64,000 bases of DNA from Psychrobacillus sp. BL-248-WT-3 (GTDB taxonomy: Bacteria; Bacillota; Bacilli; Bacillales_A; Planococcaceae): assembly GCF_012843435.1 (NCBI RefSeq), contig NZ_JABAFC010000002.1, forward strand, positions 62,001 through 126,000, written 5' to 3'. Within the stretch, counting starts at the first letter, position 1. Each line of letters opens with the position of its first letter. The notes under the pieces were generated by a model, which saw only the letters and a list, made by a program, of their open reading frames with translations, was not told the origin of the DNA and did not search any database. Shown here piece by piece: positions 31,480-38,946 of this stretch. A program made the position numbers and the translations under genes.

Positions 31480-33135
31480 TTATTTGGTTTTTAACTGATT
31501 AATCTTTTGGGTCAGTAAATTAAATTGCTCATCTAACTCGGCATATTTGGAATCCTTAGGAAGAAGGTAGCTTAACTGACCTAAAATGGCGAGACGCTCT
31601 GTTTCTAAAGTGAGGAGAATTTTTTCGACTTCATTTTCCTCTTCTCTATGGAGCCACTTATTGTAAGTCATCTCGACTTTCTGGACTTTCTTATTTTCAA
31701 ATATAAGTAGCTTGTTGGTTAGCTTTTCTAAAAAATAACGATCATGAGTTACAAGTAAAATAGTACCTGGATAAGTGGAAAGAGTTTTTTCTAGCTGCTC
31801 TCGAGAGGGTAAATCGAGATGATTTGTAGGTTCATCTAAAATAAGTACATCTTTTTGATCTAACATGAACTCCATTAACTTGAGTTTTACCCTTTCACCC
31901 ATACTCATAGTAGAAATGGGACGTAGCCAATGGTCCTTTGAAAATCCCAAGTTGGTCATCAGAGTTTGAATGATTCCTCTTGTTTCGAAATCTGTAGTTG
32001 CAAAAAAGTCAGAGGGGGTCTGCTCATTCGGAAGGTCGAATACAGTTTGTCGTAAATAGCCGATATTCATCGAATCCGTTTTCCAAAGCTCACCGTCAAA
32101 GGGTTCCTCTCCTATAAGCATCCGGAAGAAGGTTGTTTTACCACTTCCATTAGCACCTATAATACCAACGCGTTCATTTGATTGAATAGTAAAGGAGGTA
32201 TCTTGGAAAAGAGTTTTGGCATTAAAGGATTTGCTTAAATTTTTGGCTTCTAGAATGCGTTTTCCCTTTTTCTTATTCCCATCAATAGAGAAGTTGACTT
32301 CCTTTTCCTCTACTGGACGATCTACCCGATGCTTAGAAAGCTCTAGCTCTAGTCGTTTTTGTTTAGAGCGGATTTGAACATCCTTTTTCTTTGCCTTCAT
32401 TCGGAAATATTCTTTGTAGCCATCCTTCTTTGTCGAATCAGCATGAGCCTTATTAGTCCATTTTTTTAACTCTGCAATTTGTTTTTCTACGAGTTGTACT
32501 TTCGATTGTTGCGCGTTATATTCTCTCTGTTGAGTATGGATTATTTCTTCTTTTCTTTTGCGGTAGGTAGAATAGTTTCCTTTGTAAGGAGTTAGTTTTT
32601 GATATTCAATTTCCCATATATAATTTGATACTTGGTCTAAAAAGTAACGGTCATGAGAGACTAAAATAATGGTTCCTGGATAGGTAGCTATTTGCTCCTT
32701 TAAAAAGGATAGACTGCTTTGGTCTAAATGATTAGTAGGCTCATCAAGTAATAGTAAGTGAGACCTTTCTGCAAAAACTTTAGCTAGTCTTTTTTTCATT
32801 TTTTCTCCGCCGCTTAAACTATTATAAGAAAGGGTACGGGGAACAGACCACTTGCTCATATAAGTCCATTCATCCTTCTCCACTTCAGTTGAAAAGAAAT
32901 TCTCGTCCTCTTGCTTGCAGTAGCTAATGGTCGGAGGAGCTCCTATCCATTCGATTTGTCCAGAAGAGGAGGGAGCTTCGCCTGAAAGGACGGATAGAAG
33001 CGAAGATTTGCCTTCACCATTTCTTCCTACAATACCTATTACAGCACCTAAAGGTATATCCGTTTTTATATTTTTAATAATTTCTTTATGACCATGTGTA
33101 ATGCTTAGATTTACTATTCTTCCTTGTATTGTCAT
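31480..33135 (-). CDS. ABC-F ATPase, Vga/VmlR-like ribosomal protection protein
   Basis: A 551-residue soluble protein with two ATP-binding cassettes. Cassette 1 has Walker A GRNGEGKSS, signature LSGGEKMKKRLAK and LLLDEPTNHLD. Cassette 2 has GANGSGKTT, SMGERVKLKLME and LILDEPTNHLD. A basic linker of about 80 residues between them is the antibiotic-resistance domain, and a C-terminal extension follows. The size and layout match Vga/Msr/VmlR proteins, which bind the ribosomal E site and dislodge lincosamides, streptogramin A or pleuromutilins. Its attenuator leader supports drug induction. Drug range cannot be read from sequence. Confidence 0.88.
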   Translation of the reverse strand: MTIQGRIVNLSITHGHKEIIKNIKTDIPLGAVIGIVGRNGEGKSSLLSVLSGEAPSSSGQIEWIGAPPTISYCKQEDENFFSTEVEKDEWTYMSKWSVPRTLSYNSLSGGEKMKKRLAKVFAERSHLLLLDEPTNHLDQSSLSFLKEQIATYPGTIILVSHDRYFLDQVSNYIWEIEYQKLTPYKGNYSTYRKRKEEIIHTQQREYNAQQSKVQLVEKQIAELKKWTNKAHADSTKKDGYKEYFRMKAKKKDVQIRSKQKRLELELSKHRVDRPVEEKEVNFSIDGNKKKGKRILEAKNLSKSFNAKTLFQDTSFTIQSNERVGIIGANGSGKTTFFRMLIGEEPFDGELWKTDSMNIGYLRQTVFDLPNEQTPSDFFATTDFETRGIIQTLMTNLGFSKDHWLRPISTMSMGERVKLKLMEFMLDQKDVLILDEPTNHLDLPSREQLEKTLSTYPGTILLVTHDRYFLEKLTNKLLIFENKKVQKVEMTYNKWLHREEENEVEKILLTLETERLAILGQLSYLLPKDSKYAELDEQFNLLTQKINQLKTK

Positions 33136-33161
33136 AACATTTCCTCCCTGCCGGAGAGACT

Positions 33162-33192
33162 AAAAAATCCCTCCGAGTATAGACGGAAGGAT
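33162..33192 (-). terminator. leader attenuator terminator of the ABC-F gene
   Basis: Minus strand ATCCTTCCG-TCTATAC-CGGAGGGAT followed by T6, upstream of the start codon. Its 3' arm CGGAGGGA can instead pair with the downstream TCTCTCCG (with one G-U), giving an antiterminator. Confidence 0.75.
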
Positions 33193-33225
33193 TCTGCTGC
33201 CATTTAAATGTACGACAAAAAATAA

Positions 33226-33279
33226 CTACAAAATGTTTGCAGTATTCATTGATCTGATTTGAAAAATGGGCAGACTCAT
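33226..33279 (-). CDS. possible 17-residue leader peptide of the ABC-F gene
   Basis: Minus-strand ATG to TAG encoding MSLPIFQIRSMNTANIL, placed just before the attenuator hairpin. The ribosome site (GGAAATAG) is weak. A leader peptide whose stalled translation tips the hairpins is how this class is known to sense drugs; this ORF is only a candidate. Confidence 0.35.
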   Translation of the reverse strand: MSLPIFQIRSMNTANIL

Positions 33280-33428
33280 CCTATTTCCGTTTTAGCTAAA
33301 AATATTTTTCTGCGTTAAGCAGCAATATTAAGCGAGAAATAAGATTATAAAATCATAGTCCACCCATCGTCCCTTCGATATTAGTTACTAATTAATATAA
33401 CATATTCTTCTGAAAATTAAAGGGTTAA

Positions 33429-35399
33429 TTAATACAGTGCTTGACTAGACCTTGGACTTTCCATTTCAAGTTCATCGTCTGTTCTTCTTTTTTGTATGAA
33501 CCAAATTCCTATGATAAGCACGAGTCCAATCCCACTACTTAAAACCTCAGGAACAATAAGCATTAACCCGGCTACAAATAAGACAGATCGCTCCCAAAAC
33601 CTTGAATATCTGATGAAATAGCCAATCATAGAGCTGCTTACCGCAACCATCCCAATTAAAGCACCAGCCAAGGATAGTATCAGACTGACCAGTTCCACAT
33701 CCACCATAACTAAAATGGGATTATAGATAAAGATATATGGAACGATAAAGGCTGCTATGGCTAGTTTGACTGCATTTAAACCTGTTTTAAAGGGGTTTGC
33801 CCCTGCAATACCTGCCCCCGCATAAGCTGCAAGACAGACAGGAGGAGTGATATCCGCAACTATTCCGAAATAGAATACAAACATATGAGCAGCAATTGGA
33901 GCTACCCCGAATTCATTTATTAAAACTGGAGCCGCAATAGTAGCTGTAACTACGTAGTTTGCTGTAGTAGGTAATCCCATTCCTAAGATAATACAAGCTA
34001 TCATAGTGAATATGAGAGCAAGAATTAGATAACCATTGGATAGGGCCACCACTCCTGCAGCAAATTTGGAGCCAAGGCCTGTCATACTTACAATGCCAGC
34101 TATAATTCCAGCTGTAGCAACCGCTGCTATAACTGGAAGAGCAACTCTTGTACCTTGCTCTAAAACGTGTATTGTCTTTTTAAAGGACATTCTTGTTTCT
34201 TTTCGTATTAAGCTCACTAGAAAGGCAGCGATTATTCCAAACAGTGCAGCACGTTGCGGAGTAAAACCGTAAATAATGGTTCCTGTAATTACGAAAAGTG
34301 GTAAAAGCATATACCAATTCCGTTTCATTGTCTTTGTAAAAGAGGGTAATTGTGACTTAGGTAATCCATGTATCTTCAGTTTTTTTGCCTCAAAATGAGT
34401 GCCGATAAAAATACCTGTAAAATAAAGAATAGCTGGAATAATAGCCGCCAACATAATAGCCCCGTAGGATACACCTAAAATCTCCATCATAATAAATGCT
34501 GCTGCACCCATCATAGGAGGCATAATTTGACCGCCGGTAGATGAAGCAGCTTCAGTTGCACCAGCAAATTCTGGCTTGAATCCTGCTTTCTTCATCATAG
34601 GAATGGTGAAGGACCCTGTTGCCACCGTATTACCAACGGAGCTCCCTGAAATAGTTCCTTGCAGTGCACTCGCTACAACTGCTGTTTTTGCTGTACCGCC
34701 TGTATATCTTCCTGTTAAGGAAAAGGCTAAATCATTGAAGAATTTCCCTACATTTGTTTGTACGAGCATTACGCCAAAAAATAGAAAGAGGAATATGAAC
34801 TTTGCTGAAATTTGAACTGGGGTGCCGAAGATTCCACTTTCCTTGTACCAAAGTGCAGTAGCGGTTCGCTCAATCGAAAATCCAGGATGTGAAAGGATTT
34901 GAGTAGGGACAAAATTTCCGAAGATAGCATAAAGTATGGCTACTAAAGCCACTATGACGATTGGCAAACCAACCGTTCTTCTGGTCGCTTCCAGGACGAG
35001 AAAAATCCCAAGGATGGAGATAATTACATCAGGTATGCTATATCCGGAAATTCTGCTCTGTAAAATTGAATCAAAAAAGAATATTTTATGATAGGTCACA
35101 TACATCGCAGTAAAGGCAAGTACAATGTCATACCAGGGGATATTTTTTTGTGTTTTTAGCAAATCTCTTTTAAATGGGTACAACAGAAAAATAACTCCGA
35201 GAGCAGTTCCTACATGGACGGCTCCTTGTTTTTGAGTGGGTAAAGTTCCATAGTAGGCAGTATATAGATGGAATACGGTTAAGGCTACACCTAAAAAGGT
35301 AACGACCCATGCCCACTTTCCAATATTTGTTCGGAATTGATTTTCTTTATCGTATTTTTCCAATATTTCTTGCGCATTTACAGGTTGCTGATCTTTCAT
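33429..35399 (-). CDS. TRAP transporter permease, fused 4TM/12TM type
   Basis: A 656-residue membrane protein with about 16 or more helices: the small (DctQ-like) and large (DctM-like) TRAP subunits in one chain, as is standard for TAXI systems. Core motifs are GTISGSSVGNTVATGSFTIPMMKKAGF, STGGQIMPPMMGAAAFIM and GLPTTANYVVTATIAAP. It carries out sodium-driven uptake of organic acids or amino acids delivered by the binding protein encoded 42 nt upstream. Substrate unknown. Confidence 0.92.
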   Translation of the reverse strand: MKDQQPVNAQEILEKYDKENQFRTNIGKWAWVVTFLGVALTVFHLYTAYYGTLPTQKQGAVHVGTALGVIFLLYPFKRDLLKTQKNIPWYDIVLAFTAMYVTYHKIFFFDSILQSRISGYSIPDVIISILGIFLVLEATRRTVGLPIVIVALVAILYAIFGNFVPTQILSHPGFSIERTATALWYKESGIFGTPVQISAKFIFLFLFFGVMLVQTNVGKFFNDLAFSLTGRYTGGTAKTAVVASALQGTISGSSVGNTVATGSFTIPMMKKAGFKPEFAGATEAASSTGGQIMPPMMGAAAFIMMEILGVSYGAIMLAAIIPAILYFTGIFIGTHFEAKKLKIHGLPKSQLPSFTKTMKRNWYMLLPLFVITGTIIYGFTPQRAALFGIIAAFLVSLIRKETRMSFKKTIHVLEQGTRVALPVIAAVATAGIIAGIVSMTGLGSKFAAGVVALSNGYLILALIFTMIACIILGMGLPTTANYVVTATIAAPVLINEFGVAPIAAHMFVFYFGIVADITPPVCLAAYAGAGIAGANPFKTGLNAVKLAIAAFIVPYIFIYNPILVMVDVELVSLILSLAGALIGMVAVSSSMIGYFIRYSRFWERSVLFVAGLMLIVPEVLSSGIGLVLIIGIWFIQKRRTDDELEMESPRSSQALY

Positions 35400-35441: not shown

Positions 35442-36440
35442 TTATTTTACATCGTCTAAGCTTTTAATATCGGAGCTTTCACGTGTAACAATTTGAATAA
35501 CCTCTGGATAAATATGACCAATAAAAGCGGCGTTCGGAACCTCATGTCCTTCAAATGCAGCCTCACCATTTACTGCTTGTAATGCTGGCACATGTACAGA
35601 CATACCTAAATCCATGTTTCCATCTCGAATACTGGATAGATTTTCTACGGATGCTCCAGTTTCTGTATTCGTTAAGTTAAATCCTTCTATATGTTTGTTC
35701 CAAATGCTTGCCATCTCTCCACCTAGTGGATAATAAGTGCCGCCTTGGCTTCCGGTGCCTAGTATAAAATCATTTTTTCGATTGCTTTTATCAGCAGTCA
35801 GCTCAGCAACCGGATTGTCTACAGTAAGACCCTGTTCCTCATAGTAACGTTTAGCTCCAGGATGAATTGGAAGCCCCTCAGCTCCATTTAGCGCATTTTC
35901 TAAAATCATTTGTTTTGCCTGAGCATGTGTATTTTCATTGGCATTTTCAATCATGATCTTAGTTAGCTCATACCCAAGTTCTTCATCAATCGTATCCGTA
36001 CTTCCCATTAAAATGGCGTACGCTGTAACCGTTTCTACATCGGAATCCAAAAAGTCGTATGTGTCCTTAGGTATAGTGTGACGTCTATAGCCACTATTCT
36101 CTTCGATATAAGAAATTGCATCATCAGATAAGCTCATCATTACTACATCTCCGGCAGAATTCTGCAAGCTCTCAATACTAGCAGCAGGGAGGCCAAGAAT
36201 ACCAATAGAAATATCAATATTTCCATCCTGAACACCATCAGCAGCATCTCCGAATCCTTCCTGATAAGCCTTGTAATCATCGTCTGTAATTCCATATGCA
36301 TCTAAAATTAGCTTAGAAACAGAGTTAGTTTCACTAGCAGGTGGCCCAATTGCAATATTTGGCTTACCCCCACTACATCCAGCCATAAACAATGCTAAAA
36401 CTGTGATAAACAAAATAATGCTAAAACTTTTCTTCTTCAT
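35442..36440 (-). CDS. TAXI-family TRAP solute-binding lipoprotein, circularly permuted
   Basis: A 332-residue lipoprotein from the ATG at 36440 (signal ends FMAGC, Cys22). In normal TAXI proteins the block TGSxGGTYYPLGG...IKSxDDLK comes first and GKxVAIGPPASET...HPGAxxYY second. Here the order is reversed: residues about 25-205 hold the second block (NIAIGPPASETNSV...LPIHPGAKRYYEEQG), a linker at about 206-223 follows, and residues 224-332 hold the first (FILGTGSQGGTYYPLGG...SSDIKSLDDVK, then stop). All parts of the fold appear present. It pairs with the downstream TRAP permease. A cre site and sigma-A promoter lie upstream. Confidence 0.85.
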   Translation of the reverse strand: MKKKSFSIILFITVLALFMAGCSGGKPNIAIGPPASETNSVSKLILDAYGITDDDYKAYQEGFGDAADGVQDGNIDISIGILGLPAASIESLQNSAGDVVMMSLSDDAISYIEENSGYRRHTIPKDTYDFLDSDVETVTAYAILMGSTDTIDEELGYELTKIMIENANENTHAQAKQMILENALNGAEGLPIHPGAKRYYEEQGLTVDNPVAELTADKSNRKNDFILGTGSQGGTYYPLGGEMASIWNKHIEGFNLTNTETGASVENLSSIRDGNMDLGMSVHVPALQAVNGEAAFEGHEVPNAAFIGHIYPEVIQIVTRESSDIKSLDDVK

Positions 36441-36474
36441 TTTCTCTCCCCCCAAAGGATTATTATCATCTCAA

Positions 36475-36597: not shown

Positions 36598-36648
36598 TGA
36601 TTACAGAGAGATTGCAGGTGCCAGGCACCTGCAATCTCTCTGTAATCA
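36598..36648. repeat. 51-bp perfect palindrome
   Basis: 25-nt arms around a single A, centred on GGTGCC-A-GGCACC. It lies between two divergent genes, with no T-tract. The GGTGCCAGGCACC core is, from memory, a frequent palindrome in Bacillus-group genomes (REP-like). Confidence 0.8.
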
Positions 36649-36776: not shown

Positions 36777-37490
36777 ATGAAACAGTTAGATGCACATGAG
36801 ATTATTTCTTACATTCAACACGCAAAGAAATCCACACAAGTGAAGGTATACATAAAGGGAAATGGTATTGACCAACTTTCTTTTGGGGAAAATACAAAAG
36901 TTTTTGGACAAGGAAATTCTCTTATTCTATTTGGAGAATGGTCGGAAATTCAACCTACTTTAGAACAGCATAAGGATCAAATCGAAGATGTAGTAGTAGA
37001 AAATGAGAGCAGAAATTCTGCTATTCCACTATTAGATTTAAAAGGGATAAATGCAAGAATTGAACCAGGTGCTGTTATCCGTGATCAAGTGAGCATTGGG
37101 GATAATGCGATTATCATGCTTGGTGCAGTGATTAATATCGGAGCTGTAATAGGTAAAGGAACAATGATCGACATGGGAGCAATCCTTGGTGGCCGTGCGA
37201 CGGTTGGAGACAATTGTCATATCGGAGCTGGAGCAGTGCTTGCAGGTGTTATAGAGCCACCTTCTGCTACTCCGGTAATTATTGAAGACGACGTATTAAT
37301 CGGTGCGAATGCCGTAGTCCTAGAGGGATGCCGTGTTGGTAAAGGAGCAGTTGTTGCAGCTGGAGCAGTTGTTACGAAAGATGTGCCACCGTATACAGTT
37401 GTTGCTGGTACCCCTGCAAAAGTGATTAAGGATATCGATGCACAAACAAAATCGAAAACAGAAATCATGCAAGAACTACGTCAAATTTAA
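36777..37490 (+). CDS. dapH: tetrahydrodipicolinate N-acetyltransferase
   Basis: A 237-residue enzyme of the acetylated branch of lysine/diaminopimelate synthesis; it acetylates 2,3,4,5-tetrahydrodipicolinate. The N-terminal about 80 residues are the DapH-specific domain, then a left-handed beta-helix of hexapeptide repeats ([22 protein letters not shown]...). Length and context match B. subtilis YkuQ. GAGGAGG precedes the ATG. The deacetylase gene begins 11 nt on. Confidence 0.95.
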
Positions 37491-37501
37491 GAAGGTGACA
37501 T

Positions 37502-38629
37502 ATGAAGGCCTTACTTGATATTCGTCGCGATTTGCATCGTATACCGGAGCTTGGCTTTGAAGAAGTGAAAACGCAGGCATATCTTTTAGAGCAGATAGGA
37601 TCCCTTCGACAGGATCGGTTAACGACTATTACATGGAAAACAGGAATTGTAGTGAAAGTAGAAGGGCTTCAACCAACTCAAACGATTGGCTGGAGAGCTG
37701 ATATTGATGGTCTGCCAATCAAAGAAGCTACAGAGGTTAAATTTTCTTCCGAGCATCCAGGGAAAATGCATGCATGTGGTCATGATATGCATATGACTGT
37801 TGCACTTGGCTTGCTAGAAAAAATAGTAGATACACCAATAAACGATCATATGGTGTTCTTGTTTCAGCCAGCAGAGGAAAGCCCAGGTGGTGCTCTTCCG
37901 ATGCTTAACTGGCTAAGGGAAGAGCATCCTGAGCTAGTTCCTAACAAGATATTTGCTTATCACGTAGCACCGGAGTATCCAGTTGGGACAATCGCTACTC
38001 GACCTGGCCTCCTATTTGCCAATACGTCAGAGCTCTACATTGACTTAATAGGGAAGGAAGGGCATGCTGCCTACCCCCATCAAGCAAGGGATATGTCAAT
38101 CGCAGCAGCAACTCTTTTGCTACAGCTACAATCCATCGTGAGCCGTACAATTAACCCAATGAAGCCTGCAGTATTAACTATTGGTAAATTTACATCTGGT
38201 ACTGTACAAAATATTATTTCAGGTCATGCCCGTCTTGAAGGAACGATTCGTACGATGGATGCTACTACGATGGCATTAATAAAAGAAAAGATAGAGGCTT
38301 TTTGCCATGCTACTGAAATCGCATTTGAGTGTGAGGTAAAAATTGATTATGGATCATCCTATTATCAGGTGTATAACAATCATGACATTACCAATGATTT
38401 TCTTGCTTTTGCTGAGCAGCATCAAGCAACTAATGCCATTCATTGTGATGCAGCGATGACAGGTGAAGATTTTGGATATTTTTTAAAAGACATACCAGGC
38501 ATGTTATTCTGGGCGGGTGTCGATTCTCCTTTTGGTCTTCATCATGCAAAGATGAACCCAAGTGAAGAGCTATTAGACTATCTTGTCCCTTTTGTGGATC
38601 AGTACTTTAGAACACTTACAAGCAATTAA
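37502..38629 (+). CDS. N-acetyldiaminopimelate deacetylase
   Basis: A 375-residue M20-family metallopeptidase-like amidohydrolase that removes acetate from N-acetyl-LL-diaminopimelate. Metal-site motifs are [16 protein letters not shown] and the late DFGYFL segment. It starts [14 protein letters not shown] as in B. subtilis YkuR. It is the partner of the acetyltransferase just upstream. A dispersed repeat pair starts right after the stop, and the terminator lies beyond it. Confidence 0.93.
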
Positions 38630-38632
38630 ACA

Positions 38633-38755
38633 AGAAAAGCGGAACCGCCTATGTCTGCCCCGACAGGCAAATGGAGAAAAGCGAGGAGGCAGTTCCTTAG
38701 CCACCGGAGCTTTTAACCATTTGACCCCGAGGGGCAAGGCGGTGGAGCTAGACAT
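38633..38755 (-). repeat. dispersed repeat, copy C (shortened)
   Basis: An inverted partial copy of the 201-bp element. It lacks the TGTTTAGG end and an internal stretch corresponding to CTGCGCAAGC...GAGCGTTTG. It is fused head-to-tail to copy B. Confidence 0.8.
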
Positions 38756-38946
38756 CAAGAAAAGCGGAACCGCCTATCCCTGCCCCGACAGGCAAATGGG
38801 AAAATGCGAGGAGGCAGTACCTCAGCCACCGCAAACGCTCTTGTTTGCGACGAGCTTGCGCAGGAGCAGTATTTTCCCATTTGATCCCGAGGGGCAAGGC
38901 GCCGAAGTTATACATCAATCTATCCACAGGTGCAGAATTCAATAAT
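38756..38946 (-). repeat. dispersed repeat, copy B
   Basis: A nearly full inverted copy of the element at 5555-5755 and 58637-58837. It lies between the deacetylase stop and the terminator at 38961-38994, so it would be transcribed as a 3' UTR. Confidence 0.82.

Follow-up and report, generated by a model that had tools for sequence, protein, structure and literature searches.

Solute-binding proteins of the TAXI family bind an organic acid and then pass it to the permease of a TRAP transporter. The solved members, among them VcGluP (8s4j, 9ibo) and a protein from T. thermophilus (1us4, 8u79), carry the first half of the family domain before the second. VcGluP is a glutamate-specific TAXI protein of cluster F for which 13 ligand residues are named; its domain 1 comprises residues 29-115 and 268-328, and its domain 2 comprises residues 132-254 (PMC11574862).

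Natural circular permutation has been described in binding proteins of ABC transporters. Specifically, TpMglB-2 (Tp0684) of Treponema pallidum is a naturally permuted, lipid-anchored sugar-binding protein of the type I or cluster B fold with little sequence conservation in its permuted portion; its authors proposed the name Cluster Bc in 2016 and considered that anchoring might be the cause (PMC4990184). Permutation relationships have likewise been reported among glycine-betaine-binding proteins, shown with 2b4l (OpuAC of Bacillus subtilis), 1r9l and 1sw1, in a section that does not specify which member is the permuted one (PMC2395249). The entry 1r9l is E. coli ProX, and OpuAC and ProX are described as similar in fold, with no mention there of a permutation (PMC2861598).

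The sequence-only reading of the locus presented here was aware of no natural permutation described for TRAP binding proteins, and the open-licence literature in PubMed Central is consistent with this: among the matches listed, no report of a permuted TRAP binding protein was present, a scope that leaves most subscription papers outside. Words beginning with "permut" are absent from some recent TAXI papers, and the CIRPIN preprint (PMC12667903) contains no TRAP, TAXI, periplasmic or transporter terms.

The protein described here is encoded in the window, by which is meant the whole 64,000-nucleotide stretch of Psychrobacillus DNA that was analysed. It shares with the solved TAXI proteins both domain halves, six of the 13 VcGluP ligand positions, an adjacent fused permease (QM) and a lipoprotein-type signal, but its halves are swapped, its old termini are linked, its new termini appear to lie in lobe 2 and the other seven ligand positions differ. 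With TpMglB-2 it has in common the natural permutation of a lipid-anchored binding protein, in a different fold cluster: its sequence is that of a TAXI protein and not of a type I or cluster B sugar binder. OpuAC gives the best order-keeping match over the full predicted model, yet it is an ABC glycine-betaine binder of 11-12% identity, and the likeness lies in chain topology and general fold rather than in family; the adjacent partner of the window protein is a TRAP QM and not an ABC permease with an ATPase.

Results

The features of the locus are collected in Table 1. The open reading frame list offers a TTG at 36455 as an alternative start of the same gene; the ATG is preferred because GGGGGGAGAG in front of it reads, by eye, as a ribosome-binding site. 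A scan for promoters and terminators gave no signal above shuffled sequence. Under a loose pattern, a lipobox-like cysteine is present in all 41 distinct permuted proteins collected below.

Table 1 Coordinates of the binding-protein gene, its parts and its partner permease in the window
Feature	Coordinates	Strand	Details	Basis
Permuted TAXI-family TRAP solute-binding lipoprotein gene	35442..36440	-	332 aa + stop; ATG at 36440, stop at 35444-35442	
Predicted lipoprotein signal peptide	36378..36440	-	Residues 1-21; lipobox FMAG/C	Sequence
Predicted lipidated Cys22 and very short leash	36360..36377	-	CSGGKP	Leash measured in 41 permuted and 42 canonical proteins
Half B (former second half), now N-terminal	35829..36359	-	Residues 28-204	Profile and phmmer alignments
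Linker between old C- and N-termini	35772..35828	-	Residues 205-223 (LTVDNPVAELTADKSNRKN)	Alignment of permuted proteins
Half A (former first half), now C-terminal	35445..35771	-	Residues 224-332; end ...IKSLDDVK	Profile and phmmer alignments
TRAP fused permease (QM), partner	33429..35399	-	656 aa; 42 bases after the binding-protein stop	TIGR02123, PF06808

Two profiles place the protein in the TAXI family well above their curated cutoffs, each in two stretches that together leave both domain halves complete. TIGR02122 matches with 226.6 bits (cutoff 84.35), residues 28-204 falling on positions 143-320 of 320, the second half of the profile, and PF16868 matches with 208 bits (cutoff 27), the same residues falling on positions 113-289 of 289. 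The canonical topology, first half and then second, is the order of solved members and not part of the curated cutoff, and the window protein departs from it. Aligned with the solved chain 8s4j by phmmer, query residues 222-330 fall on chain residues 2-114 and query residues 28-205 on chain residues 119-298; the two crossed stretches show that the halves are swapped and that the whole domain is covered. The host genome provides a built-in control in the form of two more TAXI genes, both in normal order.

Canonical sisters, introduced below, read through the cut point (e.g. ...SIADLKGKKVAIGPPG...), whereas permuted proteins end in sequences such as ...SLDDLK-stop and begin, after the lipobox, with C-GG-GKKNIAIGPP or (G)KKxIAIG. 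As the split sits inside the motif DLKGKKVAIG of these sisters, the cut is nearly loss-free. The linker falls within the most variable stretch of the protein and nevertheless holds one invariant Ala and one invariant Lys. The sequence-only reading had described halves in swapped order, a break at the SxDDxK / GKxVAIG junction and no apparent loss, all of which is borne out by the separate alignments of the two halves and by the sisters' motif; its linker estimate, residues 206-223, was correct to within one residue. Full homology in two segments of swapped order, together with the inheritance documented below, supports reading the protein as a natural circular permutant within the TAXI family.

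The permuted order recurs across genomes. A single-contig genome of the same species encodes the protein at 100% identity, and within the genus 8 of 19 genomes carry it, 10 hold canonical paralogues only and one has no match. At the family level 36 of 261 genomes are positive, each with a single match running through both halves, and an order-level search, which likewise covered 261 genomes, returned the same 36. A contig scan with the single protein gave 24 loci from named records, metagenome-assembled genomes among them; the carriers belong to Psychrobacillus, Sporosarcina, Siminovitchia, Cerasibacillus and Virgibacillus or are strains labelled Bacillus. The permuted state is therefore inherited, in at least five named genera, and more than a one-off; the search for homologues of the same order that the sequence-only reading had proposed finds them in many independent genomes. 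It had also named reads showing an assembly rearrangement as a refuting outcome, and a rearranged or chimeric assembly of this one genome was considered here. The single-contig genome, the 36 family genomes and the 24 named-record loci all show the same order, nothing was found in its favour, and it is ruled out.

Wider sampling delimits the group. In an even draw of 398 genomes across the class, with at most five candidates scored per genome, 8 carry the permuted protein, 10 a close relative of canonical order (half B at E<=1e-54) and none both, and 21 further genomes match only at E 1e-30 to 1e-35. In a phylum sample of 398 genomes, a single match besides the window's own reaches E<=1e-40, and it has canonical order (genome G874). 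Plasmid records give 328 matches, all below 60% identity, and the 20 listed of these are two-piece matches of about 31-36%, with no close permuted copy among them. These absences are soft, because few candidates were scored per genome and the single-protein contig scan reaches close relatives only; such searches could overlook permutations in remoter proteins or of separate origin.

To place the origin of the permuted proteins, 108 TAXI open reading frames with both halves were extracted from 107 loci, 59 permuted and 49 canonical, after one single-half frame had been dropped; removal of identical copies left 41 permuted and 42 canonical proteins. Trees of half A and half B were built separately from 53 of these 83 proteins, 23 of them permuted. 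In both, the permuted rows form one side of a branch with SH-aLRT 99, which shows a single origin in the trees of both halves; the trees are quick ones with no bootstrapping, and the program flagged long branches in the distant canonical rows. In the half-B tree, the one drawn, the permuted proteins lie among the canonical sisters L085-L094 and L107, six of which join them with support 86. In each half the sisters share 46-63% identity with the window protein, and their permeases are 52-60% identical, but they keep the order A then B. Tandem duplication followed by trimming is the standard guess for how such a protein arises; 106 loci of 3-9 kb each (tblastn, E<=1e-5) showed neither a gene of the form A-B-A or B-A-B nor a remnant half.

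Selection on the permuted protein is purifying. The six computed pairs have dN/dS values of 0.012-0.067, and 105 positions are invariant among all 41 permuted proteins. These values reject a pseudogene, unless the conserved residues have some other role. A decaying, non-functional rearranged copy would moreover hardly be expected to keep its lipobox and its permease partner, nothing was found that favours decay, and this reading is very improbable.

The ligand pocket can be compared with that of VcGluP position by position. S40, Y45, Y46, S75, E125 and G203, drawn from both halves, are identical in all 41 permuted proteins. In all 41, V44 is replaced by Thr, Q93 by Val, H123 by Tyr, D157 by Thr and Y200 by Gly, and M201 is Ile or Val. 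The remaining ligand-contacting position, G156 (window residue 37), is Glu in 38 of the permuted proteins and Ala in three, and Glu in none of the 42 canonical ones. As only six of 13 ligand positions are identical, glutamate is not the obvious solute. At six of the seven that differ, the canonical sisters depart from VcGluP as well, and Val93, His94 (not a named ligand residue) and Gly200 occur in 11 of 11 sisters, so that this pocket signature is older than the permutation. Glu156, confined to the permuted proteins, suggests that the ligand or its binding mode may have changed, and a change of substrate is possible.

The partner permease is conserved throughout. The window's QM scores 732.2 bits against TIGR02123 (cutoff 320.65) and also matches PF06808. 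At all 59 permuted open reading frames, redundant copies included, a TRAP fused QM lies downstream on the same strand, its first aligned residue 24-367 bases beyond the stop. The 42 distinct QMs that accompany permuted proteins fall into a single group (SH-aLRT 99). Beyond the QM, comparison of 11 loci with the window's genes shows neighbours kept in three Psychrobacillus loci only; in the other eight the QM is the sole convincing match besides the binding protein, with weak 25-26% matches in L040 and L054 and second QM genes in L044 and L048. The neighbouring genes of these 11 loci yielded no clue to the substrate.

Three relatives hold a second TRAP system directly upstream of the permuted one: in L044 (301-3777) it comprises a fused permease, a protein of 147 aa and a TAXI protein of canonical order, in L045 (from about 348) a canonical TAXI protein and a permease, and in L048 (82-2476) a 141-aa protein and a permease within the locus. 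In the window, a match to the Bacillus small RNA ncr1575 (RF02452; 92.8 bits, gathering score 60) lies on the reverse strand at 33161-33388, in the interval that separates the permease from the gene at 31480-33135. On the other side, between the binding-protein gene and a divergent gene at 36777, a palindrome whose two 25-base arms flank a single base was seen by eye at 36598-36648. Its core, GCAGGTGCCAGGCACCTGC, has 25 genome matches with at most two mismatches at 22 sites, three of which match on both strands and several of which lie on contigs C34 and C41; the reversed control gave 0. After the gene ending at 38629, a GC-rich imperfect repeat in two copies by eye (AAAAGCGGAACCGCCTAT...CCCCGACAGGCAAATGG, 38630-38920) is read through by a probably spurious 120-aa open reading frame.

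Structure prediction is compatible with a folded protein. AlphaFold2, given 41 permuted sequences, returned a confident one-chain model (pLDDT 89.9, pTM 0.87), in line with the earlier suggestion that the protein may fold; the canonical sister L107 gave pLDDT 94.2 and pTM 0.88. Confidence is good in the linker region, over mature residues 181-210 (block means 97, 90 and 85), and the weak spot is the ligand loop at mature residues 211-214 (QGGT; pLDDT below 50). The order of elements in the permuted model is a rotation of that in the canonical model, except that two long hinge strands are each split in two.

Comparison of the models with solved structures reveals how chain order affects such searches. 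The canonical model matches solved TAXI proteins as a whole (Z 32.5-37.8 in six entries; 8u79 at Z 37.8 over 289 residues). The permuted model matches them through half B only (8u79 at Z 13.9 over 180 residues; 9ibp_B over 196 columns, TM 0.48), because these aligners keep chain order. Tied with this half-match is an end-to-end match to OpuAC (2b4l) in four entries, with Z 12.7-13.7 over 209-215 residues at 3.2-3.4 A. These rows stand 1.7-2.7 Z above the next unrelated ones, which start at Z 11.0; at Z 10-11, alignments running over model residues 1-311 are obtained with many ordinary binding proteins too, which supports a bilobed arrangement. OpuAC is not among the 50 rows listed for the canonical model. 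By sequence, a phmmer search of the PDB at E<=0.01 returned seven distinct sequences, all TAXI or TAXI-like, with OpuAC not among them. The special likeness of the model to OpuAC hints at its topology and is a clue rather than proof. Order-keeping structure searches thus find only half of a permuted protein when it is matched to its own family.

Discussion

The available data are compatible with a model in which the chain was permuted once, in the ancestor of a Bacillota lineage. The opening would have been made in a loop of lobe 2 (DLK/GKKVAIG), and the old termini in lobe 1 would have been joined through a linker of about 19 residues. The solute would be bound between the two lobes and then handed to the fused QM of the adjacent gene, by analogy with canonical TAXI-TRAP systems. 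The permuted protein is real, inherited and very probably functional, and it is highly probable that the window protein is a working TAXI lipoprotein, permuted once in this ancestor, for which binding and transport are inferred.

Why the permutation was kept is a separate question, on which the anchor bears. By the published domain limits of VcGluP (PMC11574862), both old termini belong to domain 1. The cut maps between VcGluP residues 142 and 147 in the phmmer alignment and hence to domain 2, where the new N-terminus lies. Measured between the lipidated Cys and the first conserved motif, the leash has a median length of 6 residues in the permuted proteins (6-18, n=41; 24 at exactly 6); in the canonical ones, measured to their own first motif, the median is 26 (8-40, n=42). 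The comparison is a rough one, as the motifs differ, the segments are not homologous and a leash rich in Gly and Thr may cause the canonical motif to be called too soon. The permutation would therefore place the lipid anchor on lobe 2, with about six residues of leash, instead of on lobe 1 with about 26.

One reading is that the permutation was kept for its effect on the anchor, which would have left lobe 1 for a short leash on lobe 2 and so fixed the orientation or height of the protein over its permease. The leash medians and the position of the new N-terminus point in this direction, and the authors of the TpMglB-2 study raised anchoring as a possible reason for its topology, while stating that the structure reveals no obvious advantage (PMC4990184). 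The difference in leash could, however, merely follow from the position of the cut, and the ranges overlap, with 6 of 41 permuted leashes at 12-18 residues and 4 of 42 canonical ones at only 8-13. The canonical sisters, moreover, have a similar pocket without permutation, and their leash is usually longer, L107 being the short exception. On balance this reading is somewhat improbable, and the stronger version, in which an anchor on lobe 2 with a leash of some six residues fixes the pose of the protein over its own permease and lets it act as a quasi-permanently docked subunit, is more doubtful still.

Alternatively, duplication and trimming may have produced an equally good protein that was fixed by drift in the ancestor, with no gain from the anchor. 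This fits the observation that circular permutants are functional in most reported cases (PMC2395249), as well as the near absence of lost residues at the cut and a partner permease that fits the ordinary fused-QM model. Weakly against it, no reversion or coexistence is seen in the 261 family genomes, where the only members of this subfamily to match at E<=1e-30 are permuted, one per genome, with at most eight candidates scored in each. A slight leaning towards fixation by drift, which is somewhat the more probable account, is justified because nothing found points to an advantage; selection for the new anchor position is an attractive and testable alternative.

The findings have implications for the study of binding-protein evolution. 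The states before and after a natural permutation can here be compared directly, as the halves align, the sisters are about 50-60% identical, the permuted proteins form one group and the permease is constant. The system thereby provides a clean test case for the idea, put forward for TpMglB-2, that the chain topology of solute-binding proteins is selected by tethering geometry (PMC4990184). If the permutation was indeed kept for the sake of the anchor, the protein would be a further case, independent of TpMglB-2, in which lipid-anchored binding proteins have solved their anchoring by permutation, and its sequential topology would resemble that of the Gram-positive ABC protein OpuAC.
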